The translations under genes and the position numbers were made by a program. From Candidatus Omnitrophota bacterium (GTDB taxonomy: Bacteria; Omnitrophota; Gorgyraeia; Gygaellales; UBA12090): a DNA stretch of 52,315 nucleotides. The DNA is taken from the NCBI GenBank assembly GCA_030674475.1, contig JAUSCZ010000035.1, forward strand, positions 138,682-190,996, read 5' to 3'. Shown in pieces: positions 1,827-11,889 of this stretch. The notes under the pieces are model-generated. The model was not told the origin of the DNA and searched no databases. It saw nothing but the letters and a program-made list of their open reading frames with translations. Numbering within the stretch: position 1 is the first letter of the stretch; each line of letters opens with the position of its first letter.

Positions 1827-2168
1827 CTAATAGTCAACGGTTACATTAAAGGCGCGGGTATTCTTGGGCCCGCTGCCGGGAGCTCCCCAAACCACCTTTG
1901 CCTGATAACCACCATTAAGGCCTCCCGAAGGCAGCACATCTGTCCAGGTCTCGGCACCGGAAGGAGGGCTTTTTGCCCCGGTTCTCAGTTGTTCAAAAAC
2001 ATAAGTATGCGCGGCTTCCGCGGTATAAAATGCCCTCATCCGCTTGATTTGATATTCAGCAATACGGGCCTGGTTGGTCATAAGCCCTATTACCACTGCC
2101 GCGGTAATTGATAACACTATAATAAAAATAAGAGCTATCATCAAGATTATTCCTTTTTGGTTAGCCAT
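1827..2168 (-). CDS. PilX-like pilus assembly protein
   Basis: MANQKGIILMIALIFIIVLSITAAVVIGLMTNQARIAEYQIKRMRAFYTAEAA is typical PilX N-terminus. AGGAG lies upstream of the internal ATG at 2168. The ORF track merges it with an upstream AhbB-like segment. Confidence 0.7.
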   Translation of the reverse strand: MANQKGIILMIALIFIIVLSITAAVVIGLMTNQARIAEYQIKRMRAFYTAEAAHTYVFEQLRTGAKSPPSGAETWTDVLPSGGLNGGYQAKVVWGAPGSGPKNTRAFNVTVDY

Positions 2169-2171
2169 CCT

Positions 2172-2624
2172 CTTAACTTCTCCTGATGGAAATTTTGTTA
2201 TTGCTCGCCCCTTGCAAATAAAGCTCCGCTTGTTTCTTGCCGGGTTAAATGAGGTTTTCTTTAGTTCCTTGACGGTGTTGAGCACCCTGAAATCGCGGCA
2301 GTTAAGCAGGCGCGAAAGCTCATCAATAAAAATGCTTAGCTCTTTCTTAGCCTTGGCGTGAACCATGGTGTAGAGACTGTAAGGCCAGAGCCGATGGGGC
2401 TTTCTTAAATAGATATGGCTGAGATATTCTTTTTCTTTGAGGGCCGCGCTCAGCTTATTACCCGGAGAGCTTCTTTTCCAGGCAATAAGGGCATTATGGC
2501 TAAATTGCAGTTTCTGGTGGCTGACAATCGCCCCGAAGCGACGGAGCTTTCCCGCCTTCAAATCGCGCTTTAATTTCTCTAACTCTTCTTTAGTGAAAGG
2601 CTCAGACTTTATTTCTATGTCCAT
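2172..2624 (-). pseudogene. AhbB/NirL-like (siroheme decarboxylase, AsnC-family) fragment lacking the N-terminal wing and its own stop
   Basis: KLKRDLKAGKLRRFGAIVSHQKLQFSHNALIAWK...VLNTVKELKKTS resembles AhbB/NirH-L. In-frame TAA immediately precedes the ATG. No stop before the PilX-like gene. Confidence 0.5.
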
Positions 2625-2640
2625 TTAATTTCCAGAAATC

Positions 2641-2690
2641 CCCCTCACCCTACCCTCTCCCCCGTCGGGGGAGAGGATTAAGGTGAGGGG
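2641..2690. repeat. REP-like palindrome CCCCTCACCCTACCCTCTCCCCC-GTC-GGGGGAGAGGATTAAGGTGAGGGG
   Basis: Near-perfect inverted repeat visible in sequence. Confidence 0.9.
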
Positions 2691-2722
2691 AAAATTGCGC
2701 TATTTTGAACAGCTATGATTTT

Positions 2723-3205
2723 CTAAGGTTGAAAGACAGTCTTTATTTTTATGGTCCTGATTGTGGGCAGGCTGATTATGGTTTTTATCCGGCTTTTCTC
2801 CTTGATGGCCTGGATTATCCGCTTGATTTTATTTTCGGATGGGCAGATCAAAGTAAACCAAAGATTAAACTCGGGGTCATCCCGCAGATAGTTATGGGTT
2901 ACCTCGGAGAAGCTATTAATTAGGCTCGCGGTTTGGCCTATTTTTTCCGCAGGAACGCGCATCCCCACCAGGGTCCGCTTAAATTTAAGGTTCTCGGAGC
3001 TGTGCACCGGGCCGATGCGCTTGATCAGGCCTAAGCCCTTAAGGCGCTTGGTTCTTAAAATGACATCCTCTTCGCTTAAATTCAAATCTTTGCCTATCCG
3101 TTTAAATGGCCTTAAAACCAGAGGAAATTTCTCTTGCAGGTAAAAAAGTAGTTTTTTATCTATATTGTCTATACCGATGGATTCCCGCTTTCGCGGGAAT
3201 GACAT
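2723..3205 (-). CDS. AhbA/NirD-like siroheme decarboxylase subunit (AsnC/Lrp-like fold)
   Basis: IDNIDKKLLFYLQEKFPLVLRPFKRIGKDLNLSEEDVILRTKRLKGLGLIKRIGPV...; start placed at MSFPRKRES (3205), the ORF track start is 3259. Confidence 0.65.
   Translation of the reverse strand: MSFPRKRESIGIDNIDKKLLFYLQEKFPLVLRPFKRIGKDLNLSEEDVILRTKRLKGLGLIKRIGPVHSSENLKFKRTLVGMRVPAEKIGQTASLINSFSEVTHNYLRDDPEFNLWFTLICPSENKIKRIIQAIKEKSRIKTIISLPTIRTIKIKTVFQP
3181..3200. repeat. ATTCCCGC-TTTC-GCGGGAAT palindrome (dRS3/'PRKRES'-type dispersed repeat) inside the 5' end of the AhbA-like ORF
   Basis: Perfect 8-nt arms; translated as FPRKRESI in the ORF. Confidence 0.85.
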
Positions 3206-3263
3206 TTTTAGACATTTTGCAACAGTCCCATCAAATGCTATCGAATCTTTTTTAAGCATATAA

Positions 3264-3299
3264 ATAAAAAATCCCTTCTCAGCTTTCTAAGAAAGGATT
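3264..3299 (-). terminator. Rho-independent terminator candidate after the second CuA protein
   Basis: On the minus strand: AATCCTTTCT-tagaaagctg-AGAAGGGATT followed by a T-run (TTTTTT). Confidence 0.6.
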
Positions 3300-3331: not shown

Positions 3332-3721
3332 CTATTCCACAATAACTTCTCCGCTCATATGCAGATGCTCGTTAGAGCACCAAACCGTGCAGAAAAACGG
3401 GAATTTTCCCCTCTTATCCGGGGTAAACTTCACCACCTCTACCTCTCCGGCTTTTATCTCTCTGGCTGAAACATTAAACTCCGGCAGGGAAAAACCGTGG
3501 CTGACCGTCTCCACATTGCGGATATAAATCTTTGCCTCTTTCCCCAAGGGAACCTTGAACTCTTTAGGATACCAGTTGCCGTTTAGAGGCGAGCGGGCAA
3601 TCAGCTCCACGGTATAAAACTTCTTACGCCTGGCGCCTTCAATAACAAAAACCCCGATAATGGTCCCCACGGTCGCCAATAACATCAGAATAACCGCTAT
3701 AGTCTCGTTTATCTTTTTCAT
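3332..3721 (-). CDS. Membrane-anchored cupredoxin with CuA-type motif (CuA protein 2)
   Basis: N-terminal TM helix; SHGF...CTVWCSNEHLHM = CxxxCxxxHxxM plus upstream His. Confidence 0.8.
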   Translation of the reverse strand: MKKINETIAVILMLLATVGTIIGVFVIEGARRKKFYTVELIARSPLNGNWYPKEFKVPLGKEAKIYIRNVETVSHGFSLPEFNVSAREIKAGEVEVVKFTPDKRGKFPFFCTVWCSNEHLHMSGEVIVE

Positions 3722-3738
3722 CTGAAAATCCCTTTACA

Positions 3739-3756
3739 GGTGCGATAAATCGCACC
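3739..3756. repeat. Perfect palindrome GGTGCGAT-AA-ATCGCACC
   Basis: 8-nt perfect arms. Confidence 0.8.
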
Positions 3757-3800
3757 GCTACGCGACACGGATGATCCAAGCTCTATTTTCATACTCATTG

Positions 3801-3820
3801 GTGCCGGCTTTTGCCGGCAT
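3801..3820. repeat. Palindrome TGCCGGC-TTTT-GCCGGCA
   Basis: 7-nt perfect arms in the NosR-like / CuA-2 gap. Confidence 0.75.
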
Positions 3821-3835
3821 GAAAGTTTAACTTCT

Positions 3836-5245
3836 TTATCCTATATACAGCCATAAAAAAGCCAAGGTCGCCAGGGTCAAGAAAATCAAAATGGGAATCC
3901 AGCCCCGTTTGGCCTGTTCCTCGGTAGGATAGGTCTGTCTGGACAGCCGCGCGCCGTAAGCAAGGGAAAACAAATAGAACACTATCAGCACCGCGCCCTG
4001 CAGGTGTCCCAACGCCCCGGTAAATACCGGAGTCCAGGGAACACTCCTGGTGCCGAAAAGGTTCCAGCCCCAGGCAAAAGGATCCGAAATAATATGTAAA
4101 ATGTAGCTTCCGTTGGGCAGGACAATCCCCACGCTAAAGGCAATCCAAACTCCTAAACCTAAAGGCACCAGGGTATAAGAAAAATTAGTGAATATCTTTT
4201 TTAAGGAAACCTCTTTTGCCCCGCTAAAAGACTTGGACAGGTAACTAAACACCAAGAATATTGCCGGGACAATCAACAGGCTGAAAGCGGTATGCAAAGA
4301 AATAAAGGTCAGATACCCCTTTAAAGAGGTGCCCCTGACCCAGTCCTTGAGAAAACCCCAGGGCCCCTGCATAGTCAGGAAAAAGACCATGGCAATCCCC
4401 AACATAATAAAGGCCTTCCAGGCCTCATCCAGACCGCGCTTTTCATCTACCAGAAGATCCACCCCCGGCGGCCGCAAATTAAAAGCCATATTATCATGAG
4501 GACAACTTTTAAAACATTCTAAACACATCCCGCAGTAGGTATTCTTAGTAAAATTAAAAGGAGTAAGCATCCAGGGACAGCCATAGCCGCATTCATTACC
4601 CACATAGCAGGTCTTGACCTTATGGTTCTTACAGATCTCCGGATCCTTCCTTCTGACCTCCGCCATGGCAAACTGGGAATATAAGCCCTGGAAGCCGGAA
4701 ACCGGGCAGACATAAAGACAGAAACTGCGCTTCTCAAAGACAAGTCCGATCAAAAAAGCCAAAAGAATTATCCCGCCTAAAAGAATAAAAGTAGCCAATG
4801 GCCGCACTGTAAAGAAGCCGGAGAAGAATGTGGTAACCAAGAAAAGTATATTCATCACCCACATATTCTTTAAGGCCTTGGGCCATTTCAGGCCTAATCC
4901 TTTTAACTTTAAACCGGTAACTACGAATAACGCCCCTCTCTGCAGCCAGTCGCTGAATACCGGAAACGGGCACATCAGACACCAGGCCCGGGAGAATATC
5001 GGTACCAGGATAAACATCAGCATTACCCACCAGAGTATCCAGACAATCATAATCCCGAAATTATAATTCCCGGCGGAAAAACCCCCAATCAAACCGGAAA
5101 TCAGGATAATCACAAAGATAAAGAGGTTAAAAATTATAGCCAGGAGGGGAAACCAACGGGACTTAAATAGATTTCTGATGAGTTTGAACTTAGTCAGCTC
5201 AAAACGCCAATTTAAATCTATTAATCCGAATAATTTATCAGCCAT
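3836..5245 (-). CDS. NosR/NapH-like multi-TM [4Fe-4S] membrane protein
   Basis: 469 aa polytopic; CLMCPFP, CLYVCPVSGFQ and NTYCGMCLECFKSCPHD cysteine clusters. Confidence 0.8.
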   Translation of the reverse strand: MADKLFGLIDLNWRFELTKFKLIRNLFKSRWFPLLAIIFNLFIFVIILISGLIGGFSAGNYNFGIMIVWILWWVMLMFILVPIFSRAWCLMCPFPVFSDWLQRGALFVVTGLKLKGLGLKWPKALKNMWVMNILFLVTTFFSGFFTVRPLATFILLGGIILLAFLIGLVFEKRSFCLYVCPVSGFQGLYSQFAMAEVRRKDPEICKNHKVKTCYVGNECGYGCPWMLTPFNFTKNTYCGMCLECFKSCPHDNMAFNLRPPGVDLLVDEKRGLDEAWKAFIMLGIAMVFFLTMQGPWGFLKDWVRGTSLKGYLTFISLHTAFSLLIVPAIFLVFSYLSKSFSGAKEVSLKKIFTNFSYTLVPLGLGVWIAFSVGIVLPNGSYILHIISDPFAWGWNLFGTRSVPWTPVFTGALGHLQGAVLIVFYLFSLAYGARLSRQTYPTEEQAKRGWIPILIFLTLATLAFLWLYIG

Positions 5246-5687
5246 TTGTCTTTCTCGCGCGATTAAGAGTAATAAGACTTCCTATGCCGATTACCAACAC
5301 TATTGCCGCGTACAGCCAAAAGCGTGAATTTGGCCCTACCACCAGATACCCCACCATATAAGGATGAAACTCCCCGCAGGTTACCGAACAGCGAAAGGTA
5401 TATCTACCCGCTTTATCCGCGATGAACTTCAGGCTGCCCTCCATCCCTGGATGGGCCGAGGTCTTTATCCCGTAACCGTCCACAAAAAACCCATGATGCA
5501 CATCCTCGCTAAGCAGACGGATTTTTACCGTATCCCCCCGGTTAACATTGATGATATTGGGAGTATAAGAAAATTTCTTGGCCTTGATCTCAAAAAACCT
5601 CTCCGCCGCCTGCGCCGATCCTGGCATAAACCATAAGCCATAAACTATAAACGAACTGATTATTAGTATATTTTTGCGTAATTTCAT
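5238..5687 (-). CDS. Secreted, C-terminally anchored cupredoxin with CuA motif, COX2-like (CuA protein 1)
   Basis: Signal peptide; DVHHGF...CSVTCGEFHPYM (CxxxCxxxHxxM); C-terminal TM. Start at second Met, just after the gamma-subunit stop. Confidence 0.8.
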   Translation of the reverse strand: MKLRKNILIISSFIVYGLWFMPGSAQAAERFFEIKAKKFSYTPNIINVNRGDTVKIRLLSEDVHHGFFVDGYGIKTSAHPGMEGSLKFIADKAGRYTFRCSVTCGEFHPYMVGYLVVGPNSRFWLYAAIVLVIGIGSLITLNRARKTNG

Positions 5688-6529
5688 TGTATATTTAATT
5701 CTACCCAATCCGATATGGACTTTCTTCCGCCCCGGTCTTCTTGTGAGCCGTTCCAGATGGCTAAGGCGGCTAATTTCTTTCCCGCGGCAAAATTTACCCC
5801 GTTCTCAGCCTCCAGGGCCTCAAGCGGCCGCTTAAGCACTATACTCCAAACCCCGTTCTCCCAAACACCCTTACCCATTACCTCCTGATTGTCTTTAGGG
5901 GTTATGGTGCCTACCCGGATAGCCAGCAAATCATTCACCGCGGATTTAGTGACGTGTTTGGATACCGGAAAAAGTTCCTGTTCCTCGAAAGGATAGTAAA
6001 AATCCACATAGGCGTTGGTCTGGGGAGATTCATTCTTCCAATATTCCCGATCCTGATTGGCCTTCCACTGCCAGATATTCACCCGGCCCAGAAAACCCAT
6101 CATAATGGTATGCGGCTGGGCCTTTTTCTCCAAAGGAAACATTATTGCCCCGGCATCAGGCCAAACCGCGGTTTCATGAAAGCGGTCTTCTGTGTTATCC
6201 GGCCAGCTTAGATAAAAGTAAATATTCTCCTTATTGTGAAAGGCCTTAAAGGTTACCTCCCCCAGCCCGGCCTTTATCTTCGGCCAGGGCAGGACAGTTA
6301 CCTGATACATCAGCTTAATTTCCTGAGGCTTGATGCCCTGCCAGAGCTCCGGAGAAATCCCCTGGGCCAGGTCTATGTCCTGGGCAATAAAAGGCACCTC
6401 CGCCAGCGGAGTTACAATCTTCTCAATCTTTACCGGTGTCCCCCTGGAATTAGTTACCCCGTAATAAATCAAACCGGCAAAGGCCGCGATCAATATAACC
6501 GCGATTAAAAAGGCAGTGGATTTTTTCAT
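5684..6529 (-). CDS. Heme-b gamma subunit of type II DMSO-reductase family (EbdC/NxrC-like), membrane anchored
   Basis: N-terminal TM; DAGAIMFPLEKKAQPHTIMMGFLGRVNIWQWKA pattern of ethylbenzene-dehydrogenase-gamma heme-binding domain; operon context. Confidence 0.75.
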   Translation of the reverse strand: MKKSTAFLIAVILIAAFAGLIYYGVTNSRGTPVKIEKIVTPLAEVPFIAQDIDLAQGISPELWQGIKPQEIKLMYQVTVLPWPKIKAGLGEVTFKAFHNKENIYFYLSWPDNTEDRFHETAVWPDAGAIMFPLEKKAQPHTIMMGFLGRVNIWQWKANQDREYWKNESPQTNAYVDFYYPFEEQELFPVSKHVTKSAVNDLLAIRVGTITPKDNQEVMGKGVWENGVWSIVLKRPLEALEAENGVNFAAGKKLAALAIWNGSQEDRGGRKSISDWVELNIQ

Positions 6530-7056
6530 TTGGCGTTAAAGAACTCCTCTTCTTGGCTCAAGAAATCAATCAATTCCGAGGCCGCGTTCTTATAAAAGGT
6601 ATTCTCCGTGGCGGCAACAATCTTTTGGGCAATAGCCTTGGCCGCCGGGCTTAAGTGTTCAGTGAAGAATTTTTTCTGGGCGTTAAGACAGATCTCCGCC
6701 TTTTCTTGAGTCGGGGCCTTAGCTTCCTTAAAAATCAAATAGTGCATAAATTCTAACTCGGCGTTCAAGGCATCCGGACGTTCGGAGTTTACCTCCACCC
6801 CAAAGGCCTTATAGAAACCGGAGATATCCGCTAAATAATTACTTCTCTGAAATTCATGTTCGCTCATATATTCCGTGCCATAGAGCCAGATGTCCTTGGC
6901 CCGGAAAAGGCGGTCGTATTCCCGAATAAGCTCTCCTTTTTCTCCAGAGGACTCCGGAAAAAAATCAAAAAAGCTTCCTTCCGGGTAAGAAAAGGCCACC
7001 GCCAAACTCTTATATTTACTTAATCTCTCTTTATTTAACTCTAATTGTGCCACCAT
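6526..7056 (-). CDS. TorD/NarJ-like molybdoenzyme maturation chaperone
   Basis: SERPDALNAELEFMHYLIFKEAKA motif, size, position after beta subunit. Confidence 0.8.
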   Translation of the reverse strand: MVAQLELNKERLSKYKSLAVAFSYPEGSFFDFFPESSGEKGELIREYDRLFRAKDIWLYGTEYMSEHEFQRSNYLADISGFYKAFGVEVNSERPDALNAELEFMHYLIFKEAKAPTQEKAEICLNAQKKFFTEHLSPAAKAIAQKIVAATENTFYKNAASELIDFLSQEEEFFNAK

Positions 7057-7068
7057 ATTTTAAGCAGT

Positions 7069-7086
7069 GGTCAGCGTCCGCTGACC
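7069..7086. repeat. Palindrome GGTCAGCG-TC-CGCTGACC
   Basis: Perfect arms; second copy at 34557-34576. Confidence 0.85.
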
Positions 7087-7097
7087 TTATATAGTAT

Positions 7098-8243
7098 TTA
7101 ACTGATGCTAATCCTATGCACATCCCTTTCCTGGTCATACTCCTTACGAATAATGATTGGCTCCTTTAAAGGCACCCGGGCTATTTCCTGGCCGTTTTCA
7201 GTATAACCTATGCAATATCCGTTATTGATATCCCCTTCCACCTTGAAAGTATAGGGTATCTGTTCAGTAGCCCCCATCAACATAAGTATCCCAATCAATT
7301 TCAAGTCCTCGTAAGCCTTTTTATACATCTCCACCGCGTTCTTGGACCCCGGGCCAAACAACTGTTTGTTAAATCCATCAGGCACATTTATCGGCGGGAT
7401 ATAATACACATTAGGCTCAGTGCCAAACTGGGGATATAAAGGCAGGGCAATCTTCTTAAAATGCACCAGATAATCTATCGGGTTATCTTCCCTGGGCTTG
7501 TCCCAGGGGTTCTTAAAACCAAACATCCGGATTCTTCCGATACAATTCACCGTGCACTGGGTCTGATTACCCTGTTCCGCCGCCGGATAGCAGGAGATGC
7601 ATTTCTCGGACTTACCGGTAAACTGCCGGAATATTGCTTTCTTGTAAGGACATCCACGGTTACACTCCTGATAGCCCCGGCAGCGATCCTGGTCAATCAA
7701 GACTATACCGTCATCTCTCTTATATATTGATTTTCTGGTGCAGGCGGCCAGACATCCGGGATAGGTGCAGTGGTTGCAAATCCTCTGCAGATAGGCCATC
7801 CAGGGCTGATGTGGAATCTTGATATATTCACCCTGCTTTACCGGCTCAGACACCTCATCCTCGCCGATATTAGGGGAAAGCCAATCCTCAACTTCGGGGG
7901 TCCAACCTAATACTTCTTCACCTGACTCAGGATGCTCAAAGATTGTCTTACCCGTGTATTTATCGCCATCCCAGGACTGGGTTCCCATCATCTCCAAGAG
8001 ACGCACATCCCAGCCTAAAGGATAAAATCCCCAGGGTTTGGTTTCCACATTATTCCACCACATATGCACCTGGCCCTTGCCGGAGGTCCAGGCGTTCTTA
8101 CAGGCCATAGTGCAGGTCTGGCAGGCAATACACTTATTGGTGTCGAAAATCCAAGCCGCCTGTTTTTGAGGCCGGGCCTCGGGATATTTATACTCCATAT
8201 GGCGTTTTAACTGCCAGTTGTAAACTTTATGCGAGGTGCTCAT
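7098..8243 (-). CDS. NxrB/NarH-like iron-sulfur beta subunit
   Basis: CIACQTCTMACKNAW; CNHCTYPGCLAAC; DRCRGYQECNRGCPYKK; EKCISCYPAAEQGNQTQCTVNCIGRIR: four Fe-S cluster signatures. Confidence 0.92.
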   Translation of the reverse strand: MSTSHKVYNWQLKRHMEYKYPEARPQKQAAWIFDTNKCIACQTCTMACKNAWTSGKGQVHMWWNNVETKPWGFYPLGWDVRLLEMMGTQSWDGDKYTGKTIFEHPESGEEVLGWTPEVEDWLSPNIGEDEVSEPVKQGEYIKIPHQPWMAYLQRICNHCTYPGCLAACTRKSIYKRDDGIVLIDQDRCRGYQECNRGCPYKKAIFRQFTGKSEKCISCYPAAEQGNQTQCTVNCIGRIRMFGFKNPWDKPREDNPIDYLVHFKKIALPLYPQFGTEPNVYYIPPINVPDGFNKQLFGPGSKNAVEMYKKAYEDLKLIGILMLMGATEQIPYTFKVEGDINNGYCIGYTENGQEIARVPLKEPIIIRKEYDQERDVHRISIS

Positions 8244-11200
8244 GATACAAATGCTCCTTTAAGGAAGTTCTTCATTGCCGCGTTCTCGTAAGTCGGCCTC
8301 AAACCCAATTTAACCGGTCTCCAGAGCTTCTCCGGGTTAATCCCGCCGTCTTCAGCCTTGGTGAATTTGACAAAGCTTTCCTTGGGCGCGCCGGTAGGAC
8401 AATGCACATCCGGGGCAAAACCCTTGCTGATTACCTGGCCTACAGTATCCTTGCGGACTAAGCTTTCGGTCATTAAGGTTGGCTTAAGCCAGCCACGGGT
8501 GCAACTCTGGTGCGAGCCGAACCTATACATTGCCTGATAGCCGGTGCGGGGGTTTCTGGCCAAGCCGTCCTTATTCTCCAGATGCCCCTGAACCGAGCCA
8601 TAAGTAGCTCCATACATATTAAACCAGGAACGGCTGACAGTTCTAGGTATGCCATAATAATACCTGGCCCGTAAGCATAGCCTAGACAAGCGGTAATTTT
8701 CACTACCCGGTATCTTTTCCCCGTGATAAGGCCGGTCCTCGGGATCAGCATCTACCCAGACATAATCCCCATCTTCAATGCCTAATTCCTTGGCATCCGC
8801 GGGATTGATATCCACATAGCCTTCGCCCACCCAAGGAGTGCGTTTATCTCTGCGGGTAGGGTCGCCAAACGGGCCGAACCAGATAGCGATAATATCCGTA
8901 TCAATAGGGGTGGTATGGGCGCCGTGGCGGTATTTAGGGGTGATATAGACATGGCTCCAGCCATCCTTGCGCAGGGGATGATTAGACTTAAGTAATTCCT
9001 CCGGAGTCATCATCACATTCCTGACCTGGCGCACATCCGTGGACAAATTATCTTTACTTAATCCGTATTGCTCCGGCTGGGCCGGTTTTATGGCCGGATG
9101 GGGTTTAGCTACAATCACATTAGGCTCAAAGATGGTCCCGTCAATCGGCTCGCGGTAAACCGGGAGATTCTCCCCGGCTTCAATAAACTCATCTTCCTCC
9201 CGGTAAAACTCCAGCCTCCCGGTCTTGGTATACCACTTCTTATTCTCATTGGCCTGCTCCCAGCCCATAATCTTAGGATAGGTGCGGCTCATCAATAAGG
9301 CCGGGATACCCTCTTTAGCATCCTTCTCTAATTCCAAGACTTTATAGCCCTTAGCCATTGAGCTGGCGCTCATAATCCTCTGCAGATAGACATCCACCCG
9401 GCCATCATCCACAAACTTCCAGAAATCCGCGAAACGATTATCGTTAAGCAGACGGGATAAGGCCTTGGCCACTCCGGAGTATATCTCCATATCCGACCTG
9501 GTATCATGCAGACGTTTCAGGGGCGTAGTCGGATACATCTGCAGGAAGGGATTGGTTACCGCAGCCGTGGCATCCGGGTATTTAAACTCGGCCCAGGAAT
9601 CCACGGGAAAAACCACATCCGCGTATTCGCAGGAAGCGGTCCACCACCAGTCGCTGACGGTGATCATATCTATCTTAGGTAAAGTGTTAATTACCATATC
9701 ATAATGGCCTTTAAGGTTGCCTAAAATAGAATTGGCATTGGCAAACATCAGAGACTTGGTCGGGGTAGGCATATGGGACTTGCCGGTAAAAAGCTTGTTG
9801 CCTATTCTTAGCGGCTGGTCGCCGTGATTGTAATAATGCGCGGACTCAAATTTAAAATACTGCCTGACCTTGGCGGGCTTAGACTCGTCTAACTCGGGAT
9901 TAAAAGGATCCTCGCTGATGTATTGGCCGATCCCGTCAAAATAGGCCACCCGGTAATTACCGGCAAAACTTCCGATATTTCCGCCGTGGGTGCCGATGTT
10001 ACGGGTAAGAGAGCAGACCAAAAAGATTGCCCTGTCCTTGAGGTCATTATTAAAGAAATGGTTCGGGCCCATCCCTACGGCGATCAGGGTTTTGCCCTTA
10101 TTTTCCGCTATCTGGCGGGCCAGACTGATTATCGCCTCTTTAGGGGCCCAGGTTATCTTGGAAACAGTCTCCGGGTCAAAATTATCCTTAATATATTGGG
10201 AAAGGATGCTGTATACAGTCCTGACCTTTAGCTTATTACCTTTGATGTCAACAACCTCATACTCATCCGCGTCCAGAACCGGTTTTACGCCCTTTTCAAC
10301 AAAATACTTCCCAACCTCATCACGGGTAACCGCTCCAAGGGCATTCTTGTCCTTATCCCAGACCACAAAACTGCCGAATTCATTCAAAAGCTCCTGAGAT
10401 ATATGCTGCTGGCCTCCCTGCTTTATGGGAGCAGGGGGTTTTTCACCCTTATTGACAATCTTAACTTCCCGGGCACCTTGCGGCGGCTTAAAATCCGCGA
10501 AGACCTCTTCCGCCCGCAGGAGCTTTAAGGTATCCATCCGGACTAAAAAGGGCAGATCAGTGGAGCTGGCAACATATTCCTCATCATAAAGTTTTTCCTG
10601 AATAATGACATTAGCCAAACCCAGAGCAAAGGCCGGGTCGCTACCGGGACGGATAATCACCACCTCGTCGGATTTGGAGGCAACCGAGGAATATTCCACG
10701 GTTACTGATATAACTTTAGCCCCCTTAACCCTGGCTTCCGTAAGCCAGTGGCCGTCGGGCATCTTGGTGGAGATCCAGTTCATACCCCAAGGAATAATCA
10801 ATTTGGAGTTCTCGGCATCTACGAGGTCAAAGTCAATAGTCTGCTGTCCGGTAACCATAGGATGCCCAGGCGGGAGGTCAGTATGCCAGGAATAATTATC
10901 CCAGCCCTTGGCTCCCACTGCCTCATCAGGAGAGAGTCCGCGAATATGGGAATCTAAGATAGCCATAGAGTTCGCCGTGCGATACATCCCCAGGAGCCGG
11001 GTTATCCCTAAGAGGGGCATGCCCCCACGAAACTTTAAAGCCTGAACCCCCGCGCCCTTCATCGCCTCAATCATCGCCGGGTCATAACCTTGTTGAGTAA
11101 GCAAGGCCTTGCCGCTGTCGCCGGAATAAGTGGTGGCGATATTGATTAAACCCTTAGCCGCGATCTCAAATATTTCATCCCAGGAAACCTTGACAAAATT

Positions 11201-11695
11201 CTCTTTACCGCGCTGGAGGTATTCTGAAGACGGCTTTCCGTCTACGCCTCGGGGGAATCCCGCCTCTACCCACTTCTTAAAGCCCTCCCGGACCATCGGG
11301 TATTTGACCCTGCGCGGGCCGTAAACCCTGCGGTTTAAAACCAATCCCTTATTGCACAACCTGGGCTCCCAACGGTGAGAAGCCTGATTGCCGTAAACAT
11401 CCTTGGCCTTGCCATAGCCGTAGCTTGGTCCGATTCTGGTAATAATATCGTTCTTGACATAGGCCCTAAGTAGGCAGTTATGGGTATCATTGGGGGCGCA
11501 GAGGAAATGAAAGGTGGAATCAAACTTAAATTGGCTGCGGTAGATTTTTTCCCAATCCCGGTTAGGATAGAACTCCAGAGGATTATCCACCTCCGGGATA
11601 AACTTTAAAGCCGCCAGCAATGGTTTGCTCGCGGCTAGACCGGCAATAGAAATTAAGGAAGCTTTTAAAAATTGCTTACGGGTAAGCTTTTTCAT
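8240..11695 (-). CDS. NxrA/NarG-type molybdopterin catalytic subunit (type II DMSO reductase family)
   Basis: 1151 aa; RDWEKIYRSQFKFDSTFHFLCAPNDTHNCLLRAYVKN; candidate Mo-ligand region NYSWHTDLPPGHPMVTG; RK-type Tat-like leader; C-terminus CPTGAPKESFVKFTKAEDGG...LWRPVKLGLRPTYE. Confidence 0.9.
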   Translation of the reverse strand: MKKLTRKQFLKASLISIAGLAASKPLLAALKFIPEVDNPLEFYPNRDWEKIYRSQFKFDSTFHFLCAPNDTHNCLLRAYVKNDIITRIGPSYGYGKAKDVYGNQASHRWEPRLCNKGLVLNRRVYGPRRVKYPMVREGFKKWVEAGFPRGVDGKPSSEYLQRGKENFVKVSWDEIFEIAAKGLINIATTYSGDSGKALLTQQGYDPAMIEAMKGAGVQALKFRGGMPLLGITRLLGMYRTANSMAILDSHIRGLSPDEAVGAKGWDNYSWHTDLPPGHPMVTGQQTIDFDLVDAENSKLIIPWGMNWISTKMPDGHWLTEARVKGAKVISVTVEYSSVASKSDEVVIIRPGSDPAFALGLANVIIQEKLYDEEYVASSTDLPFLVRMDTLKLLRAEEVFADFKPPQGAREVKIVNKGEKPPAPIKQGGQQHISQELLNEFGSFVVWDKDKNALGAVTRDEVGKYFVEKGVKPVLDADEYEVVDIKGNKLKVRTVYSILSQYIKDNFDPETVSKITWAPKEAIISLARQIAENKGKTLIAVGMGPNHFFNNDLKDRAIFLVCSLTRNIGTHGGNIGSFAGNYRVAYFDGIGQYISEDPFNPELDESKPAKVRQYFKFESAHYYNHGDQPLRIGNKLFTGKSHMPTPTKSLMFANANSILGNLKGHYDMVINTLPKIDMITVSDWWWTASCEYADVVFPVDSWAEFKYPDATAAVTNPFLQMYPTTPLKRLHDTRSDMEIYSGVAKALSRLLNDNRFADFWKFVDDGRVDVYLQRIMSASSMAKGYKVLELEKDAKEGIPALLMSRTYPKIMGWEQANENKKWYTKTGRLEFYREEDEFIEAGENLPVYREPIDGTIFEPNVIVAKPHPAIKPAQPEQYGLSKDNLSTDVRQVRNVMMTPEELLKSNHPLRKDGWSHVYITPKYRHGAHTTPIDTDIIAIWFGPFGDPTRRDKRTPWVGEGYVDINPADAKELGIEDGDYVWVDADPEDRPYHGEKIPGSENYRLSRLCLRARYYYGIPRTVSRSWFNMYGATYGSVQGHLENKDGLARNPRTGYQAMYRFGSHQSCTRGWLKPTLMTESLVRKDTVGQVISKGFAPDVHCPTGAPKESFVKFTKAEDGGINPEKLWRPVKLGLRPTYENAAMKNFLKGAFVS

Positions 11696-11795: not shown

Positions 11796-11871
11796 TCAAC
11801 CTGAATAAAAAAAGTAGTAAGCGCGTGAGGCTTGCCTTCTAATCATTACATAAATAATTATAGCCAAAATG

Positions 11872-11889
11872 AAAATCTTGTCAAGATTT
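11872..11889. terminator. Short hairpin AAAATCTTG-T-CAAGATTTT directly after the phosphoribosyltransferase stop
   Basis: Inverted repeat flanked by an A/T run. Confidence 0.35.

Follow-up and report, generated by a model that had tools for sequence, protein, structure and literature searches.

An NXR-type molybdoenzyme operon of an Omnitrophota bacterium with a conserved CuA and iron-sulfur module that may connect the enzyme to the membrane

We analysed a stretch of 52,315 nucleotides (nt) from a Candidatus Omnitrophota bacterium (assembly GCA_030674475.1, contig JAUSCZ010000035.1, positions 138,682 to 190,996 of the forward strand), referred to below as the window. Positions 3332-11695 of its minus strand hold seven co-directional open reading frames (ORFs), all of them present with the coordinates that an initial annotation, made from the sequence alone, had given for a collinear operon. 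They encode alpha, beta, delta and gamma proteins of the nitrite oxidoreductase (NXR) type, a first CuA protein (CuA1), a polytopic 4Fe-4S membrane protein and a second CuA protein (CuA2). The pairs alpha/beta, delta/gamma, gamma/CuA1 and CuA1/membrane protein overlap; gaps of 41 nt and 114 nt separate beta from delta and the membrane protein from CuA2. The Pfam matches from alpha to CuA2 are PF00384, PF13247, PF02613, PF09459, PF00116/PF13473, PF12801 and PF13473. A motif scan found CxxCH in none of the seven proteins, in agreement with the initial annotation, which had seen no c-type cytochrome in the operon. The operon is real and strongly conserved; the mechanism, in which copper proteins would connect the enzyme to the membrane, is what we infer from it. 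Its parts are the following (aa, amino acids).

8240..11695, minus strand: alpha, molybdopterin catalytic subunit assigned to the NXR clade, 1151 aa (PF00384; match to Kuenenia NXR-A 7b04)
11474..11500, minus strand: alpha FS0 [4Fe-4S] ligands C66-x3-D70-x3-C74 of NXR type, with substrate-side Asn69 (alignment and PMC8387239)
7098..8243, minus strand: beta, four-cluster Fe-S subunit, 381 aa (PF13247; TIGR03478, E 3e-70)
6526..7056, minus strand: delta, TorD/NarJ-like assembly chaperone, 176 aa (PF02613, TIGR03482)
5684..6529, minus strand: gamma, haem-b subunit with an N-terminal hydrophobic segment, 281 aa (PF09459, TIGR03477)
5238..5687, minus strand: CuA1, signal-like N terminus, CuA domain and C-terminal hydrophobic segment, 149 aa from the ATG at 5687 (COX2, PF00116)
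5355..5390, minus strand: CuA1 ligand motif CSVTCGEFHPYM, kept in 47/47 homologues
3836..5245, minus strand: polytopic 4Fe-4S membrane protein with NosR/NapH-like membrane motifs, 469 aa, about 9 transmembrane helices (PF12801)
4502..4633, minus strand: ferredoxin-type Cys set C205-C248 of the membrane protein, two 4Fe-4S sites, predicted cytoplasmic (conservation and AlphaFold2 model)
4013..4084, minus strand: Trp-rich loop of the membrane protein, residues 388-411, predicted periplasmic (conservation; AlphaFold2 helices and loop charge)
3332..3721, minus strand: CuA2, N-terminally anchored CuA protein, 129 aa (PF13473)
3356..3391, minus strand: CuA2 ligand motif CTVWCSNEHLHM, kept in 42/46 homologues

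The best solved relative of alpha is NXR-A of Kuenenia (7b04), which matches end to end (residues 2-1149, E 8.2e-276). Other type II enzymes follow at a large distance, PcrA with E 8.6e-60, NarG with about 1e-44 and EbdA also far behind NXR-A. The stretch CAPNDTHNC, which holds Cys and Asp ligands of FS0 together with the substrate Asn, is identical in all 23 alphas covering it. In Kuenenia NXR the FS0 ligands are C67, D71, C75 and C115, with N70 on the substrate side (PMC8387239). The molybdenum ligand Asp corresponds to D273 in a WHTDLPPGH motif and is invariant among the aligned alphas covering it. We assign alpha to the NXR clade because Kuenenia NXR-A matches it better, by a wide margin, than Pcr, Nar or Ebd do, and because it keeps the FS0 Asp, the substrate Asn and the molybdenum Asp. 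In gamma, M144 and K270 are invariant (29 homologues) and align with NXR-C of 7b04, whose haem b is ligated by Met155 and Lys305 (PMC8387239). M144 and K270 are hence likely the haem b ligands. A candidate twin-arginine translocation signal of alpha, read by eye, is LTRKQFLK in the window, an R-K variant, and ITRREFLK in the L035 homologue (L and G numbers are our own handles). Judged from sequence, alpha, beta and gamma are a probably periplasmic enzyme of the NXR/nitrate reductase (NAR) clade within the type II dimethyl sulfoxide reductase family. The NXR-type plan with a TorD-like chaperone that the initial annotation had proposed is thus borne out by the NXR-A match, the family matches and the kept ligands.

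Kuenenia NXR-ABC (7b04) and the periplasmic NXRs of Nitrospina and Nitrospira share with the operon full-length alpha homology, the Asp-ligated FS0, the beta chain, an EbdC-like gamma with Met/Lys-bound haem b and a TorD-like chaperone. No canonical NXR was found in a Brocadiaceae-labelled genome, and Nitrospinota were taken as NXR reference. Nitrospinota alphas are only about 38-41% identical to the window alpha, and the one complete locus read (L191) has no CuA/4Fe-4S module by nxrA. The conserved NXR gene set of Kuenenia, Nitrospira and Nitrospina comprises cytochromes c, two cupredoxin-like proteins and a bd-like oxidase, and copper carriers for NXR have already been suggested for these three (PMC3578206). 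A wider NXR/NAR sister clade including Nitrotoga is likewise known (PMC6050957). These Nitrotoga/Hydrogenobacter enzymes are also exported type II enzymes, lie at a comparable distance from Kuenenia NXR and include putative nitrate reducers (PMC6050957). The Nitrotoga locus has been described as holding NxrA, NxrB, NxrC and a chaperone only, and it is by this description that it is set apart here. NXR homologues have been reported from diverse aquifer taxa (PMC9562985). Ethylbenzene dehydrogenase and the selenate, chlorate and perchlorate reductases have the alpha-beta-gamma-chaperone plan in common with the operon, but their alpha is much more distant; the partners that have been described for selenate reductase are soluble cytochromes c (PMC3578206). 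We found no earlier description of the CuA pair with the 4Fe-4S membrane protein, or of its fusions, in the open-licence literature (subscription literature lay outside the search).

Both CuA proteins carry the full ligand set H..CxxxCxxxHxxM, in support of their naming in the initial annotation, and the set is conserved in their homologues. Two of the four CuA2 homologues with an incomplete set are ORFs ending at a contig edge. CuA1 finds its best PDB match (E about 4e-12) in a CuA domain of cytochrome c oxidase subunit 2, and CuA2 matches NosZ CuA domains and nitrosocyanin. That CuA1 and CuA2 are parts of an oxidase was considered and ruled out, as the genome has no haem-copper oxidase match.

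Across 69 homologues of the membrane protein, 11 Cys are invariant or nearly so. Its Cys-Pro motifs read C-x2-C-P (C89, C92) and C-x3-C-P (C176, C180), and a ferredoxin Cys set is also present. An AlphaFold2 model of the monomer (mean predicted local distance difference test 91.3, predicted template modelling score 0.90) places a Cys-rich domain between four preceding and five following helices. Loop charges, a GltD-type insertion in one homologue and the CuA1 fusions described below suggest that the Fe-S domain faces the cytoplasm and that the Trp-rich loop 388-411 lies outside. This strongly conserved loop is a candidate docking face for CuA. A haem b within the membrane protein was ruled out, since no His is conserved among the 69 homologues. 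Neither a sequence profile nor a fold search found a PDB relative, and no NCBIfam model matched at E<=0.001.

The initial annotation had called this protein NosR/NapH-like. Its description as a polytopic 4Fe-4S membrane protein stands; the NosR/NapH label is only partly apt, and by the features examined the protein belongs to neither family. NosR likewise is a membrane 4Fe-4S protein serving the CuA of a periplasmic enzyme, NosZ (PMC5928378). The operon, however, has no NosZ, its CuA sites reside on separate small proteins, and the membrane protein has five extra C-terminal transmembrane helices and no FMN (flavin mononucleotide)-binding domain (PF12801 is its only Pfam match, and the AlphaFold2 model has no periplasmic domain). 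With NapH, the menaquinol dehydrogenase part of Nap, it shares membrane helices with paired Cys-Pro motifs, ferredoxin-type Cys and a periplasmic nitrate enzyme as client. It differs from NapH in length and topology, is not recognised by NCBIfam and stands in an operon with no napG, napF or napA partner gene. Where NosR has two CX3CP motifs plus two 4Fe-4S motifs, the membrane protein has C-x2-C-P in the first place, C-x3-C-P in the second, and the ferredoxin Cys set. As working analogies, NosR and NapH come closest (PMC5928378).

Several relatives of the membrane protein occur in other settings. In G028, the ferredoxin domain of a second homologue (P0001, L025:2148-4976) is interrupted by a GltD-like flavoprotein domain of NAD(P)H type; this homologue is flanked by CuA-type genes (1642-2148 and 4985-5455), and a CcsA-type gene follows. 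A Methanoperedens-labelled contig (L061:8502-11869) encodes CuA1, an F420 FrhB/FdhB-type protein, the membrane Fe-S protein and CuA2, then multihaem cytochromes. Distant homologues (36-44%, L068-L110) lie in many cases beside CuA and CuA-dihaem proteins in Acidobacteria, FCPU426, Planctomycetes and Desulfobacterota. Among the scanned neighbours of homologues at 36-47% we found CuA-dihaem proteins, a rubrerythrin-like protein, NtrC-type regulators and Rieske/Mo or multicopper proteins, and no NosZ context.

The CuA-membrane protein-CuA set was searched for beside other NXR-like operons and found across phyla, in line with the conserved synteny on which the initial annotation had made its inference depend. 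A scan led by the membrane protein, which selects for the module by design, returned 79 loci from 84,980 genomes. The order alpha-beta-delta-gamma-CuA1-membrane protein-CuA2, either as such or with genes fused, is found in Omnitrophota, Planctomycetota, Acidobacteriota, Lentisphaerota and Candidatus Hakubella, and also in metagenome-assembled genomes (MAGs) labelled Spirochaetes and Undinarchaeales, several MAG labels being possibly wrong. A fair test of linkage is given by a survey led by alpha, covering 384 Omnitrophota genomes, 27 of which have an alpha homologue. Among the loci read out, the module is present in 9/9 evaluable loci with an alpha of >=65% identity (two further such loci end at a contig edge after beta or delta and were left out) and in 0/9 more distant NXR-like loci, 7/9 of which have gamma-type subunits with CxxCH. 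Fisher's test gives p = 4e-5; the groups are largely two clades, so that independence is overstated.

Gene fusions tie the parts together further. In Planctomycetota CuA1 is fused behind gamma, EB_dh and COX2 forming one protein (L047-L051, L053, L054, L065), while in several lineages it is fused in front of the membrane protein (L036, L042, L058, L059, L060, L063, L064, L066 and others). The fusion state changes at least 8 times on the membrane-protein tree. As CuA1 is fused to either one in different lineages, its position is probably between the gamma haem b and the membrane protein. The alpha tree and the membrane-protein tree are incongruent: the same-family genome G003 has an alpha 82% identical to that of the window with a membrane protein of only 58% and of the fused type, and in L047 a planctomycete alpha of a deep 47% clade stands beside a planctomycete-type module. 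Since the trees disagree, parts appear to have been exchanged or replaced while the pairing of enzyme and module stayed.

Related loci without this arrangement, or with a variant of it, were also seen. A second Omnitrophota NXR-like clade (L146-L153, alpha 43-45% identity), which groups with Nitrospinota NXR in the tree, has gamma-type subunits with c-haem motifs and no CuA module. Plasmid 2 of the cultured haloarchaeon Natronococcus occultus SP4 (L138:14001-17362) carries a 50% identical NXR-like alpha with beta and chaperone, without CuA module; this alpha is absent from the PLSDB gene table. In an archaea-labelled MAG of Candidatus Hecatella orcuttiae (L110:9291-17517), CuA, membrane Fe-S protein and CuA precede a deep-clade NXR-like alpha-beta-chaperone set, with no gamma homologue detected nearby. 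A molybdoenzyme cluster of NrfD type lies near the CuA module in L034, L035, L037 and L059, and on another contig in the present genome (L029, G000:C19).

The operon is flanked by the following features.

11857..11884, minus strand: candidate operon promoter TTGACA-16-TATAAT upstream of alpha (12/12 sigma-70 consensus; consensus match only)
3270..3299, minus strand: candidate terminator after CuA2, 13-pair stem then T-rich tail (stem scan; consensus match only)
2723..3259, minus strand: AhbA/NirDL-type sirohaem decarboxylase subunit for haem b synthesis (PF17805, PF22451)
1827..2624, minus strand: ORF with an AhbB-like N-terminal part running in frame into a PilX-type pilus segment (PF17805 at 41-122, PF14341 at 157-205)

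The stem at 3299-3270 with its T-rich tail agrees with the candidate terminator of the initial annotation. AhbA/AhbB-type genes follow the operon directly (1827-3259) and stand beside it in several relatives too, an AhbA-type homologue adjoining it in L022, L023, L024 and L026; they are possibly a source of haem b for gamma. The AhbB-like and PilX-type parts form one ORF in the window and two separate ORFs in L022. A promoter-like TTGACA-17-TACAAT with TG extension (3325-3297) lies shortly ahead of the terminator-like stem and the AhbA-type gene, so placed that the haem-synthesis genes may have a transcript of their own.

The host assembly comprises 2.19 Mb in 42 contigs and is 92% complete; its gene content was probed by family searches and selected stretches. 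Relatives of this bacterium come from Hainich groundwater. MenA lies within a men-like cluster (L156), and complex I-type genes are present (L155), where the stretch read lacks NuoEFG-like genes; the men and nuo calls beyond MenA and the 49 kDa subunit rely on gene order and sequence reading. A second molybdoenzyme has an NrfD-type partner (L029; partner family read on the L035 homologue). Family searches for haem-copper and bd oxidases gave no match in the genome, an absence that is uncertain at about 92% completeness. Because no such oxidase was matched, our data point to this organism reducing nitrate rather than oxidising nitrite.

We consider it probable that the operon encodes a nitrate/nitrite molybdoenzyme of the NXR clade that is exported and has a copper-based wiring module of its own, and that the gene products would act as one complex. 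The polytopic 4Fe-4S protein would take up electrons at the membrane, with menaquinol as their most likely source, and hand them to the two membrane-anchored periplasmic CuA proteins. CuA1 would be the carrier in contact with the gamma haem b. From gamma the electrons would pass along the Fe-S chain of beta and over FS0 with its Asp ligand to molybdenum, where nitrate would be reduced to nitrite. CuA2 would add another CuA site to this path, perhaps one placed between membrane protein and CuA1, or might serve a second partner. Menaquinol would be the simplest donor and fits the genome with its MenA and men-like cluster. Of the copper link from the quinone pool that the initial annotation had suggested, the conserved CuA/Fe-S module is confirmed, whereas the quinol end remains conjectural.

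Several points weigh against this mechanism. All Fe-S ligands of the membrane protein are predicted to be cytoplasmic and there is no conserved His for a membrane haem, leaving the route of electrons to the outside CuA unexplained. Flavoproteins of the cytoplasm, of NAD(P)H or F420 type, are coupled to two relatives of the membrane protein. Three alphas at 54-59% identity have no adjacent module, one of them having a six-CxxCH ORF instead. Moreover the host has CcsB/CcsA-type genes with one CxxCH ORF nearby (L154) and is thus not free of cytochrome c, and the oxidases may be missing merely from the assembled part of the genome.

An alternative is the same complex with a cytoplasmic donor: ferredoxin or a reduced flavoprotein would feed the Fe-S domain, from which the electrons would cross the membrane to CuA, with quinol playing no part. 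The predicted cytoplasmic side of that domain, the GltD-like insertion in the G028 homologue between two CuA proteins and the F420-type protein between CuA1 and the membrane protein on the Methanoperedens-labelled contig, beside multihaem cytochromes, all point this way. The window operon, however, has no flavoprotein gene, the host has MenA and a men-like cluster, and the donor of NapH is quinol according to earlier work cited in PMC5928378. We regard a cytoplasmic donor as possible, but distinctly less probable than menaquinol.

It is unlikely that the operon works as a nitrite oxidase, with nitrite electrons running from gamma over CuA to the membrane protein. Such a direction is suggested by the closest solved relative, a nitrite oxidoreductase working both ways (PMC8387239), and by the related Nitrotoga enzyme, which oxidises nitrite (PMC6050957). 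Against it stands the lack of any match in this host to the haem-copper and bd oxidase families, though it could still hold in other host phyla. Moreover nitrite electrons lie at about +0.42 V, and reduction of menaquinone with them would need energy input.

Still more doubtful is a role of the copper and Fe-S proteins as assembly factors that deliver copper or haem and carry no electrons. The adjoining sirohaem decarboxylase genes would suit it, as would the precedent of CcoG-type proteins, which are membrane Fe-S proteins with copper-handling roles. The complete CuA ligand sets, the stable fusions that join CuA1 to gamma or to the membrane protein, and the swap with haem-c gamma subunits in sister operons are better explained by an electron path. 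Chance adjacency or an assembly artefact, conceivable in a draft assembly, is ruled out by the same gene order in many independent assemblies of several phyla and by the gene fusions.

A far-reaching extension, to which we give little credence, would see in the membrane protein the founding member of a widespread respiratory conduit, in which Fe-S/flavin chemistry of the cytoplasm, menaquinone and CuA of the periplasm come together. At its extreme, the electrons of menaquinol would be split, one going to high-potential CuA and nitrate, while the second would reach Fe-S of low potential in the cytoplasm and, in the flavin-bearing relatives, feed NAD(P)H or F420. If true, this would be a quinol-based bifurcation with copper as the high-potential arm.

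Returning to the copper-based wiring of an exported nitrate/nitrite enzyme, the conservation of the package over many phyla suggests an undescribed way of wiring an NXR-type enzyme to the cell membrane, a connection that is an open matter even in known nitrite oxidisers (PMC3578206). The module brings with it a membrane redox protein family without solved relative. One NXR clade with a copper/iron-sulfur connector, set against sister operons of the same phylum with a haem-c gamma, offers a ready comparison of copper and haem on the same catalytic core. NXR-like genes of uncultured bacteria are usually taken as markers for nitrite oxidation or nitrate respiration, and the CuA/Fe-S module is a marker that splits two groups of such genes in metagenomes.

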